Positions 11,219-48,065 of a stretch of 64,000 bases of DNA are shown here, in pieces (the stretch's first letter is position 1; each line of letters starts with the position of its first letter). The position numbers and the translations under genes are program-made. The stretch spans positions 496,001 through 560,000 of the forward strand of contig JAHCMK010000001.1 of the NCBI GenBank assembly GCA_019192445.1, read 5' to 3'. The notes under the pieces were generated by a model, which saw only the letters and a program-made list of their open reading frames with translations, had not been told where the DNA came from and made no database searches. The stretch is from Oceanococcus sp. HetDA_MAG_MS8. Its GTDB lineage: Bacteria > Pseudomonadota > Gammaproteobacteria > Nevskiales > Oceanococcaceae.

Positions 11219-11412
11219 TAACCTTCTCTATTGCGTCTCCTCTGGTATGGCAGTTTAGCCTGATTCCCATTCATCGCTGGTCATTGATTGATCTCTGGCG
11301 AGCTGAAGAACACGCCTGGTTCGCAATATCCATACCTTGCCTTTTTCGACGGCCCGCCCTTAGTCTGCGGCCATGGGTGCGCGTGGGGCGCATCAATGAG
11401 GAGACAATTGCG

Positions 11413-13140
11413 ATGGTTTGGGGAATAGCTCGCCTGAGGGGCGCTGTTGCGGCTGTCCTAACGGGATTGATACTCGTAGGCTGTGGCACAGAGTCAGAGA
11501 ACGACTCTACCGGGCAACTCGTGGCTGCAGAGTCGTTCAAGGTTGGTACCGCGGAGGCATTGCATAATCCAAGCGGTGACATCTGTGTCGGAGGAGGAGC
11601 GACACTTTGTGGTCGACGTGTTGATGCCAGTTCCGCCGAAGCGATCGCTGATCCGCTGTTGGTCAAGGCGATGGCCATTACCGGGAAGAATGGCCAGTCT
11701 TTCGTTCTGGCGACCACGTCGAATATTGGCTACTTCGCCGCATATAAGCCTGAACAGGGCGGGCCGAATGGCATTTTCGACATGCGCTCAAGAATTAGCC
11801 AAGAGACTGGAGTGCCGATTAGCAACATTGTCGTCGTCAGCGACCATTCCCATAACGCCCCCGACACCATCGGTATCTGGGGTGGAGTGAGCCAAGATTA
11901 TCTTCGGATAACCGCAGAAGCGGTTGTGCAAGCTTCTGTACAAGCGGTTGCGAACCAAGTTCCCGCCAAACTGTTTGTGGCCGCCGTGAATCAAAATACC
12001 CAGCCGGTTGCAGGAGTCACCAAGGTTGAGTCTTCCGCCTACGCAGCGCCGCCTGCGGCGGATGAGTCCCGAGGCAATCCGAGTAATGAGTTTCGGGTGC
12101 TCGTCGCCGAAGCGGCGGAGGATGGGCGCCGCCTACTGACGTGGATGAACTACTCCCCGCATGCCACGGTTTGGAACGGCGTGGCCACCGACAAACTCAC
12201 CGGCGACTGGGCAGCCTGGGCTACCCAGGAGGCTGAGGCTCGCTACGGTGGTCGGGGCTTAGCAACTTTGGGCACCATGGGTGGAACCGACTGGAATAAG
12301 GGCGAGGGAGGCGCGCAAGAGCGCGAAGTCGAAGCTCGCGGCAGATTGCTTCGCTTGCTAGAAGCCGCCGAGAAGAATTTGCAGCCCGTCATTGGTGAGG
12401 ACGTTCTTGTACAAACCACCTTTATTCGCGAGTCAATCGCTCAGCCAGTACTGTTGCTCAACTACAAGCCGGGGCTACCAACCAATCAGCCGGGCACCCC
12501 TGGTGACGGCGTAGATGTACGCATTGATCGCACCCTCACCCCGCCTTTTTTACAAGGCACGGTGTTCGGTACCCACATTAGCGCTATTGCCATTGGCGAG
12601 GTTTTCATTTCCACATTTCCCGGCGAGCCCTTCGGAGAGCTTGAGCATGTGCTGCGTGAGCAGCAGCGGGTGATGGGTGCTCAAGCCTACTTTGTACTGG
12701 GGGCCGCCAACGATTTCTTCGGCTATATGGTCCATGAGCCAGAAACCTATGCTCAGTTATTCGAGGGGGGAGCGGCATGGCTGGCTGGGTGCCCGGAAAC
12801 GGAGATTCTCGATAGTCTAGGCGTCGCCAAGGAACCCGGTTGTGCCGACCATTGGACGCTGATGGTATCTCCCAGCATCGGGACACATATTATTTGCACA
12901 CTGCAAGACGCCGCGCAGGCTTTAGGTTTTGAGGTGCAAAACCGCAATGCGGAATGCCCTGTGCTCACTGCTTTGGACGGCGTAGCTGGGCCCGAAGACC
13001 TGCCGATGTTGCCAAGCGGAGCATGGGACCAATCGCACCCCGCAGTCGCTGCACTGGCCAAGGAGGCACTAAAGGAATGCGCTTCACGCGGGGCTTTGAG
13101 TAGCCTCTGCGCGAACTTAGTCGACATCCGCTATCCCTAG
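11413..13140 (+). CDS. Ceramidase-like lipoprotein with altered catalytic segment
   Basis: A 575-residue lipoprotein (lipobox LVGC at 21-24) related to the N-terminal domain of neutral ceramidases. Zinc-ligand motifs are recognisable: SDHSH (143-147), SPHAT with His 250, PGEPF with Glu 405, and GYMVHEPETY near 437-446. The segment that carries the nucleophilic serine in true ceramidases reads GGTDWNKG here (290-297), so the Ser-Pro-Asn signature is absent. The C-terminal domain of ceramidase is not obvious. Start chosen at 11413 after GAGGAG; an upstream in-frame start lacks a signal peptide. The TAG stop lies in the CTAG bordering the inverted-repeat element. Probably a secreted amide or ester hydrolase of unknown substrate, a remote paralogue of the gene at 23638. 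Confidence 0.7.
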   Translation: MVWGIARLRGAVAAVLTGLILVGCGTESENDSTGQLVAAESFKVGTAEALHNPSGDICVGGGATLCGRRVDASSAEAIADPLLVKAMAITGKNGQSFVLATTSNIGYFAAYKPEQGGPNGIFDMRSRISQETGVPISNIVVVSDHSHNAPDTIGIWGGVSQDYLRITAEAVVQASVQAVANQVPAKLFVAAVNQNTQPVAGVTKVESSAYAAPPAADESRGNPSNEFRVLVAEAAEDGRRLLTWMNYSPHATVWNGVATDKLTGDWAAWATQEAEARYGGRGLATLGTMGGTDWNKGEGGAQEREVEARGRLLRLLEAAEKNLQPVIGEDVLVQTTFIRESIAQPVLLLNYKPGLPTNQPGTPGDGVDVRIDRTLTPPFLQGTVFGTHISAIAIGEVFISTFPGEPFGELEHVLREQQRVMGAQAYFVLGAANDFFGYMVHEPETYAQLFEGGAAWLAGCPETEILDSLGVAKEPGCADHWTLMVSPSIGTHIICTLQDAAQALGFEVQNRNAECPVLTALDGVAGPEDLPMLPSGAWDQSHPAVAALAKEALKECASRGALSSLCANLVDIRYP

Positions 13141-13407
13141 TGTCCTGTCTCCGAAGTTCGTTGCATATCAGAGCCCCTCAAATCGTTCGATACAAGGCGC
13201 GCTCCGCCGGGAATGGTCATTCCCTTGCCAAGGAGCGCAACGCGGTAGCGGGCGATTTGAGGGGCTCCCTGCGGGCGAGCCAGAACGCGGCGTTCCGCGG
13301 TGTTGCGCTCGCTTGAAATGGAACAACCATTCCTGCGCGAGCGCGCCTAGCGGCACACCGCGTTCTGACTCGCTGATATGTAACGAACTTCGGAGACAGG
13401 ACACTAG
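13137..13407. mobile_element. MITE-like element with 31-bp terminal inverted repeats
   Basis: The ends are near-perfect inverted repeats: TGTCCTGTCTCCGAAGTTCG with continuation to about 13170, mirrored at about 13373-13403 with one mismatch in 30. A CTAG flanks each end (13137-13140 and 13404-13407), compatible with a 4-bp target duplication. Inside are two nested hairpins. The left one has arms 13171-13185 and 13253-13267 and a GGGAATG/CATTCCC core near 13209-13224; the right one has arms around 13275-13290 and 13357-13372. There is no coding sequence. The left left-half sequence recurs at about 47972-48032. It is a non-autonomous transposon or a REP/cruciform-type repeat. Confidence 0.75.
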
Positions 13408-13487
13408 AGAAACATCCGCCGCAAGGCCCAGAGTACGAAATTATCGAGCGGACAGAGATGTCGTAAAGCGAGCTTGGGGAGGCGCGT

Positions 13488-13799
13488 TTAACGCGGCTTG
13501 TACTGTCCATGAGCGTAGCCGCGGAGTACCCCTGATGGGCGTTTCTGACCATGCTTGGTTTTGCGTCCGGTCACGCGCTGACGCCATAAGCGAAAGGAGG
13601 AGGGTTTTAGCTCGCGGCGCATGAAGCGAATCACCTGTTTTTCCTGCAGGCCGTAGTTGCGCTCTATGGCTTCAAAAGGTGTGCGGTCCTCCCAGGCCAT
13701 TTCTATGATGCGGGATTTGTCTGCAGCACTCAAATCAGTGGCTTTTGAGCGTGCTTTGGGGCTGCCTGTTGTCTGCGCAGTCGGGGTGTTGGATCTCAT
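13488..13799 (-). CDS. DUF2805 / TIGR03643 family protein
   Basis: A 103-residue basic protein. The core from about residue 28 to 85, with IIEMAWEDRTPFEAIE and later FMRRELKPSSFRLWR and GRKTKH, is the signature of the TIGR03643 (DUF2805) family. The pattern looks like a small helix-turn-helix, so nucleic-acid binding is plausible; no function is established to my knowledge. Its ATG overlaps the stop of the upstream small gene by 4 bases. Genes of this family often sit near photolyase/cryptochrome-related genes, but none is here. Confidence 0.82.
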   Translation of the reverse strand: MRSNTPTAQTTGSPKARSKATDLSAADKSRIIEMAWEDRTPFEAIERNYGLQEKQVIRFMRRELKPSSFRLWRQRVTGRKTKHGQKRPSGVLRGYAHGQYKPR

Positions 13800-13996
13800 G
13801 ATTCGTCTAGACCAGACTGTTCATCGACCACCTTATGAAGTACGGCGGTTTGCAGTAACTGCTTCTCGTAATGGCGGTTACGTCGCTGCTTTTTGGCTTT
13901 GGCGCGTTTGCCGTAGCGCTTGTCCTGAATGATGTCGCTCATGCGGCTGAGATCATCGGCGCTGTGAATCTGGTTGGGTGATGTGCGACGCGTCAT
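13796..13996 (-). CDS. Small basic protein of unknown function coupled to the DUF2805 gene
   Basis: A 66-residue, strongly basic protein (MTRRTSPNQIHSADDLSRMS at the start, then a Lys/Arg-rich middle with KRAKAKKQRRNRHYEK). The ATG at 13996 follows GAGG at a good distance, and the gene overlaps DUF2805 by ATGA, so both should be translated together. I do not recognise the family. Charge suggests RNA or DNA binding. A longer in-frame start at 14059 has no ribosome site. Confidence 0.65.
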   Translation of the reverse strand: MTRRTSPNQIHSADDLSRMSDIIQDKRYGKRAKAKKQRRNRHYEKQLLQTAVLHKVVDEQSGLDES

Positions 13997-14149
13997 AACG
14001 GCCTCGAATGAGTGTGAAGCACGAAGACCACGACTTGGCCTCCGGTGGATCCCTCCCAATGCCTAATCTTTTGCGCGGAGTACTATCTCAGTGGGTTCAG
14101 AAGACGATTCCGCGGAAGTACAGCGAATGCTCCTTTGCTATTGCAGGGC

Positions 14150-14863
14150 TTAGCGCAGGTGCCGCCCGCCATCTAATGCCAATACGCGCCCAGTGATGTA
14201 CTCGCTTTGCATCAGGTAATCCACTGTTGCTTGCAGTTCACCGAAGCCACCTTCCTTTTCCATCAAGCTTTTGGCTTTGGCTTTGGCTTGGTAGGCCTCA
14301 TCGTCACCTTCGTTGAAGAGAAGCAGGGCTGGTGCAATGCTGTTGACCTTGATCTTGGGGGCGAGCTTTTGGGCGAAAGACATGGTGAGATTGTCCTGTG
14401 CAGCTTTGCTGGCTGCGTAGGCAATATGCTTCTTGCTGCCGTGACTGCTGACGTAGTCTCCAATATGGATGATGTCAGCGGGTGCGCCTGGGTGTTTCTG
14501 CAGCAGTGCCGCCAGCGACATATTGAGCTGGTAGGGTACGCCAACATGCACACGCATCATGGTGGCCATAATCTCGGGCAGGGCCAGGTCGGCGCTATCG
14601 CTGAGCCATTGCGATGCATTGTGAATCATGCATCGCAGATCAGCATGTTGAGCCTGAACAGCTTCAATCAAAGCGTGGACGCTGCCTTCATCGTTAAAGT
14701 CGCAGCGGTGCAGCTCTGCACCTCGCTCACGTAGCTTTTCTAAGCTGGGGTATTCCGTGCGAAAAGTCCCAATCACGGGGATCCCGCGCTGCAGCATTGT
14801 CTGCGCCAGAAATAAGCCAGCCCGACGCCCTACGCCGGTAATCAGCACATGCCCAGTTTTCAT
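14150..14863 (-). CDS. folM: Dihydromonapterin reductase FolM (short-chain dehydrogenase)
   Basis: A 237-residue SDR protein. The nucleotide motif is [16 protein letters not shown] (about residues 6-21); the GRRAG form, rather than TGxxxGIG, is typical of FolM and PTR1-like pteridine reductases. The active-site YAASKAA is at about 147-153 and the C-terminal end [13 protein letters not shown] is also FolM-like. It reduces dihydromonapterin to tetrahydromonapterin, the cofactor of bacterial phenylalanine hydroxylase. The ATG overlaps the folE stop by 4 bases, which sets the start at 14863. Confidence 0.88.
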
Positions 14864-47967: not shown

Positions 47968-48065
47968 TTGCCTTGCCAAGGGATTGATCATTTCCCGTGG
48001 AGCGTTCCTCGCATCGGACGATTTGAGGGGCTTATACAAGAAATGAACTTCCGTTAAGAGGCACC
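47968..48065. repeat. Degenerate, inverted copy of the 13.1-kb MITE-like element
   Basis: Bases about 47972-48032 align to the reverse complement of 13169-13228 at roughly 80 percent, sharing the core CGATTTGAGGGGCT and the GGGATTGATCATTTCCC hairpin region. A looser match to the terminal repeat (GAACTTCCG for GAACTTCGG) lies near 48044-48052. The copy begins directly after CCCTAG, the rmuC stop, just as the intact copy begins after CCCTAG. Confidence 0.6.

Follow-up and report, generated by a model that had tools for sequence, protein, structure and literature searches.

A 265-bp IS630-ended repeat of Oceanococcus whose hairpin-module interior is probably combined with the ends of unrelated transposase families in other bacteria

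The window analysed here is a stretch of 64,000 nucleotides from Oceanococcus sp. HetDA_MAG_MS8 (assembly GCA_019192445.1, contig JAHCMK010000001.1, positions 496,001 to 560,000). At positions 11284-13140 it carries an ORF of 618 aa with homologues in 3/3 other genomes of the family (57-62% identity); the label "ceramidase-like" that an earlier note had attached to this ORF finds no backing, as no Pfam family matches it at E<=1 and the sole PDB match has an E-value of 0.068. A small DUF2805 gene (13488-13799, minus strand) lies just downstream of the feature of interest, a short mobile DNA element of 265 bp (13140-13404, no strand assigned) with TA on either side and terminal inverted repeats (TIRs) of about 32 bp. 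The left TIR (13140-13171, plus strand) is IS630-like and begins GTGTCCTGTCTCCGAAGTTCG..., and the right TIR occupies 13373-13404 on the minus strand. The flanking TA dinucleotides, at 13138-13139 and 13405-13406, each lie inside a CTAG, and the left one together with the next G gives the upstream ORF its stop codon, TAG. Along 13137-13407 the order is CTAG, TIR, hairpin, linker, hairpin, TIR and CTAG. From its sequence, inverted arms, copies and ends we classify the element as a miniature inverted-repeat transposable element (MITE) of a two-module type.

The outer inverted arms (13134-13171 and 13373-13410) are 38 nt long, 95% complementary and enclose two hairpins, with arms at 13171-13193/13245-13267 and 13275-13298/13350-13373. 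Folded as DNA, the stretch reaches -108 kcal/mol versus -49 for shuffles (z -14.9); folded as RNA, its z-score against shuffled sequence is -16.6. These arms and this fold bear out the earlier description of an element with inverted ends, CTAG at both sides and two nested hairpins; its terminal repeats are real, and its dimensions, given as 263 bp with 31-bp TIRs, are here refined. The interior consists of two hairpin modules of about 97 bp in inverted order around a mini-hairpin of the form CCC(TNC)GGG. Module A (13171-13267) is core-forward on the plus strand and is matched at 13177-13261 with 91.9 bits by R2, a covariance model of the hairpin module; module B (13275-13373) is core-forward on the minus strand and is matched at 13282-13366 with 75.2 bits. 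The linker between them (13267-13275) reads CCC(TGC)GGG and forms the mini-hairpin CCCTGCGGG. Neither hairpin is a simple one, each having conserved internal loops. ORFs of at least 80 aa overlap the 265-bp element.

The element is a dispersed repeat. BLAST recovered seven full-length copies in the window's genome (3.53 Mb, 20 contigs) and an eighth cut by a contig end, all about 89-100% identical, along with many contig-end halves and decayed relicts. Short, ended by 32-bp TIRs and scattered at unrelated sites, these copies agree with the earlier assignment to the MITEs and with insertion at CTAG. They fall into two subfamilies with similar interiors, whose whole elements are about 90% identical to each other; the difference is a 7-nt block, TGTCTCC or CTTAACA, present as the same block in both TIRs, with a few single-copy variants besides. 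The window itself also holds a decayed relict of a second copy (47971-48051, minus strand; 81 bp, 78% identical by BLAST), of the CTTAACA type by eye. Eleven contigs (C1, C3, C4, C6, C7, C8, C10, C11, C13, C14 and C15) start or stop inside the element, so that the count of copies is too low and gaps in the assembly fall at the element. Two shortened copies in another genome (L067 and L069 of G037) have kept module A and both TIRs and lost module B, showing how one-module elements can arise.

At 29 distinct element ends in the window's genome the base immediately outside is C in 25, T in three and A in one, and the four-base ends are CTAG (23), TTAG (3), CTGG (2) and ATAG (1). In three of the seven two-ended copies (L003, L004 and L008) the 4-mers at one side and the other differ. 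Given these unequal 4-mers and the variation of the outside base, the duplicated unit would most simply be TA, with the G...C part belonging to the element and a length of 265 bp; a TA duplication within a CTAG-like target would account for the ends, which a 4-bp duplication does not.

The position of the element at a stop codon had suggested that its insertion set or trimmed the end of the upstream protein. Collapsing the insertion in silico, with either TA or CTAG as the duplicated unit, gives back ...CCC TAG AGA...; CTAG is restored on removal of the element, and the TAG stop of ORF 11284-13140 is therefore the same with and without it. A same-genus homologue (62% identical) that lacks an element at this place has its end at most about three residues away, 10 residues past the aligned part versus 13, and the supposed effect on the C-terminus finds no support. 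Nor are element ends enriched in stop codons: 39/168 ends of the collected elements provide an in-frame stop, compared with 111/471 of all CTAG in the loci L154-L233. No empty site was seen directly in the relatives, in which the region downstream is not syntenic, and none was found through plasmid flanks in Azotobacter and P. aeruginosa.

The TIR of the element resembles the ends of a 1139-bp IS630-family insertion sequence (IS) on a Streptomycetaceae plasmid, agreeing in 22/24 bases at one end and 18/24 at the other; the transposase of this IS has the Pfam domains DDE_3 and HTH_32. By itself the match has a BLAST E-value of about 1, and it carries weight because it is found at both inverted ends of an IS630 element. 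The window's element hence shares its TIR with an IS630 element, and its ends point to the TA duplication of that family. The full-length partner transposase that the earlier note had sought was not found in the assembly: the assembled genome, whose contigs break inside the element and of which two small contigs are wholly masked, contains no IS630 DDE_3 transposase, and the partner would thus be lost, unassembled or masked. Among the matches listed for this genome no TIR pair surrounds an IS, and among those listed for 85 genomes of the order, three of which have a TIR match, none forms a pair of IS length. The sole DDE_Tnp_1 gene of the window's genome (C3:100361-101080) has other ends than the element; it lies between inverted repeats of the CTGTTGAAAAAC type, about 1.6 kb apart and unrelated to the element ends.

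Segments of the element also match other genomes and plasmids, and the matches that were opened proved mostly to be complete elements built alike but with different ends. Fifteen modules, drawn from four genomes and from three plasmids, were aligned, and their stems are nearly wholly different in sequence yet covary: 85.9% of cells are paired, 23/28 stem pairs have changes on both sides, and the covariation score of 0.636 compares with 0.110-0.178 when the columns are slid by one to three, a value reached by 0/500 shuffles. Conservation is highest within the internal loop and next to it: the loop strands, CAAGGCG and GCAAC, are 84-100% conserved per base in 73 modules without the exact search pattern described below, a set obtained, however, with a model that favours internal-loop bases. 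The linker has the form CCC(TNC/GNA)GGG in 38/46 cases. TNC/GNA is compatible with cUNCGg tetraloops. In alignment A2 two adjacent stem pairs, 10/76 and 11/75, are wobbles of the G·T type in 18 and 24 of 56 modules, a possible conserved tandem wobble. An AT-rich element of about 360 bp in Catenovulum (L114:1501-1866) has a similar plan, with a CCCTTCGGG linker and ACAAGG...GCAACAC, and a weak R2 score of 21.3 bits. No match reached the Rfam gathering score in eight loci, and in the window (12500-14200) Rfam returned two miRNA matches only, both far below gathering.

Genome scans with R2 at E<=1e-5 gave matches in 121/369 genomes of the window's class and in 71/239 of its phylum; the two samples overlap, and the numbers of matches per genome are lower bounds. 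Searches with an exact pattern of the core found at least 119 stretches in named genomes, of which 80 were made into loci. R2 scores at least 40 bits in 69 of these 80, and 48 of the 69 also have a TIR. With the bacterial groups taken from record titles, many of them of MAGs, these 48 loci include Alpha-, Beta- and Gammaproteobacteria, 8/8 loci of Planctomycetota, 1/6 of Acidobacteriota, the one Fibrobacterota locus and one further bacterium; loci of Gemmatimonadota (2/3), Myxococcota (1/1) and the Desulfobacterota type (1/3) pass on R2 only. Run on 398 genomes of the phylum, the exact pattern matched 12 and its reversed control none; the pattern also gives chance matches, and some of the 12 look like coding sequence. 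On viral contigs R2 confirms 2/10 pattern matches.

TIRs scoring at least 14 surround 28/30 model-found and 53/80 pattern-found loci, as against 2/800 random placements. With such TIRs, two-module elements measure 264-278 bp in 44/46 cases (usually about 268 bp) and one-module elements 158-170 bp in 20/28 (usually about 165 bp); in 14 more elements a single detected module adjoins the stretch of an undetected partner. The TIR sequences are very diverse, and two types could be tied to a transposase. The type CTAGTGTCCTG... goes with IS630, and the type CTAGGGTCTGTTGACG..., from an Azotobacter element, agrees in 17-18/19 bases with the ends of three 861-862-bp IS5-family elements, on two of which Pfam was run. 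The ends of L220, L229, L168 and L196 gave no recognisable IS in plasmids, four loci from scans of viral contigs for TIRs had no IS partner, and two IS5-type matches (L113 and L111) had no TIR pair. The opened IS loci (L109-L113 and L115) contain no R2 match, which indicates that the module-bearing MITEs did not arise by simple deletion from those IS. Module identity and TIR identity correlate weakly (0.22; 3828 pairs from 88 elements). In six pairs the modules are 80% or more alike while the TIRs are unlike; four of these were discounted by eye as boundary artefacts, which leaves L199/L175 and L145/L126. On an Azotobacter plasmid (L087:2445-2715) an IS5-ended element adjoins IS630 transposase-like sequence, with a shared CTAG by eye. 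Nesting at a common target could offer a route for the exchange of ends.

The stems also bear a strand signature. If only double-stranded DNA or a cruciform mattered, G·T and A·C mismatches would be expected to be equally frequent in a given orientation, and an excess of one of them needs a strand-specific process. Read core-forward, the model-aligned modules have 198 G·T versus 24 A·C, a count that leans towards G·T as the model allows G·U. A structure-blind test used pattern-found elements in a fixed register and took those 56 of 83 pattern matches that lie away from contig ends and have at least 9/16 Watson-Crick pairs. Here G·T exceeds A·C in 33 elements and falls short of it in five, with 18 ties (p about 4e-6); by cells the counts are 81 and 34, with 42 of the 81 at two neighbouring positions, and they become 76 versus 10 if the outermost two positions, at which the stem mostly stops, are left out (an exclusion chosen after looking). 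In two-module elements, with each module read in its own orientation, the ratios of G·T to A·C are 56:18 on the left and 49:15 on the right, though the two face in opposite directions. Single-hit elements have a weaker excess (103:54; 38 elements versus 14). A wider fixed-register count that runs beyond the stem ends gives no G·T excess (136:165), and so the register matters. The TIRs follow suit in one-module elements oriented by their core (29:7; 17 elements versus 3), and those of two-module elements give 15:7 (12 versus 6) without any orientation. On these counts the excess suggests that the core-forward strand is selected for how it folds when single-stranded, as ssDNA or as RNA. Single-module elements have no bias in their orientation by GC skew (12 versus 15).

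Taken together, we consider it quite probable that the element is a non-autonomous, IS630-ended MITE with a conserved hairpin-module interior that elsewhere is combined with the ends of unrelated transposase families. It was very likely mobilised in trans, by cut-and-paste, by an IS630-family transposase duplicating TA within CTAG. Its interior is two inverted copies of a conserved hairpin module rather than the remains of a shrunken IS, and this module family has been joined in many bacteria to ends that belong to at least two, and probably more, unrelated families of transposases, likely through an exchange of ends between lineages. As the weakest step, which we hold at well under even chances, the modules and the CCC(TNC/GNA)GGG mini-hairpin of an element that is single-stranded, or of a folded RNA of the same sense when it is transcribed, might fold back and bring both TIRs together, and such a fold-back of a very short element would help whichever transposase owns the ends. 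More broadly, we tentatively envisage a cross-phylum superfamily of structured mobile modules bound to no one transposase, in which the core is a heritable selfish unit swapping IS630, IS5 and other ends, and in which both opposing modules are selected as a core-forward single-stranded fold during mobilisation rather than for the host; this too is rather less than an even proposition.

The strand signature would equally be expected if the modules acted as RNA. Read-through from either side of a two-module element meets a core-forward module first, so that two inverted modules would make the effect independent of direction; the loops could bind an RNA-binding factor or RNA polymerase, shielding a host gene or aiding the element. 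The prevalence of G·T over A·C throughout these counts, the high conservation of the internal-loop bases and the TNC/GNA form of most linkers all fit such a role. However, folding of ssDNA could yield the same G·T excess, no Rfam family matches, and single-hit elements are not oriented with the flanking genes (++ 8, -- 15, +- 14, -+ 8, with 5 within an ORF), nor is there a preference by GC skew. Moreover, the modules usually lie inside TIRs (28/30 model-found loci and 48/69 pattern loci with R2 of at least 40 bits), leaving little sign of host use, and we regard an RNA function as unlikely.

Somewhat less likely again is that the modules have no function, the MITEs that carry them all descending from a single ancient MITE, with stems kept perfect by template-switch repair of quasi-palindromes and with each TIR changing alongside its transposase. 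Two accounts describe fold-back transcripts as usual for MITEs of such a size (PMC10969869, PMC2229807), and the weak correlation between TIR and module identity is compatible with this history. Yet conservation peaks in and beside the internal loop, with the caveat on the model given above; the TIRs match two unrelated transposase families, and the G·T excess calls for a strand-specific process.

The earlier proposal of an IS5-family MITE with a 4-bp CTAG/YTAR duplication now seems very improbable. CTAG does stand at both ends, interiors of this kind carry IS5-like ends in other genomes, and MITEPsy1 of Pseudomonas syringae, an element of this IS5-type, 4-bp kind, has been proven to move (PMC3189936). 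However, the ends of the window's copy match IS630 and not IS5, they fit TA while the 4-mers of three copies are unequal, and the genome's one DDE_Tnp_1 gene sits between different inverted repeats; neither a 4-bp duplication nor an IS5-type TIR was found, and by its ends the IS5 reading appears largely refuted for this copy. That the structure is a palindrome arising by chance or artefact, or else a local structure conserved as part of the neighbouring genes, is refuted by the copies dispersed at unrelated sites and by the fold z-score of -14.9, with no point found in its favour.

The common view of bacterial MITEs is that each derives by deletion from a single IS and has a narrow host range. 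If a structured core is indeed maintained across phyla as its ends vary, then what lies between the ends of a MITE can be selected, and can be passed on independently of the transposase. The module would make it testable why very short elements transpose and whether folding of DNA or RNA plays a part in DDE transposition, and R2 with one exact pattern is a ready tool for finding many unannotated elements.

Among known systems, REPINs and BIMEs consist of paired inverted REP hairpins, the REPs being of 20-40 bp and the GTAG type, and are moved by RAYT transposases. They share with the window's element the presence of two inverted hairpins per element, whereas the latter has DDE-type TIRs, TA flanks and 97-bp modules with two internal loops. 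MITEPsy2, the ends of which we take to be Tn3-like, was set aside as a candidate. The repeat families R178 and R200 of Pseudomonas fluorescens are considered here by description. In open-licence literature, including the available text of PMC12457610, PMC10969869, PMC2229807, PMC5896051, PMC3189936 and PMC2718517, we found no description of the hairpin module; the search being limited to that literature, an earlier description elsewhere is possible. The closest kinds described in that text are Correia, QMITE, MITEPsy1 and RUP. Correia/NEMIS and QMITE are likewise small MITEs with stable RNA hairpins, and Correia elements carry an IHF-binding insert, but no TIR-independent cross-phylum core is described for them in the text available (PMC2229807; PMC5896051). 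MITEPsy1 and other IS5-type MITEs resemble the element in their CTAG/YTAA target and short TIRs, and transposition of MITEPsy1 has been demonstrated; by its description, as available, MITEPsy1 differs in its 100 nt, its 4-nt duplication and its probable IS5 partner, ISPsy2 (PMC3189936). RUP of Streptococcus pneumoniae comes near in being non-autonomous and short, with IS630-type TIRs, a TA target and a foldable transcript, and in the available text is proposed to be mobilised by IS630-Spn1 (PMC2229807); unlike RUP, the element in the window has a cloverleaf interior of two modules, which is met again in other phyla and between TIRs of other families.
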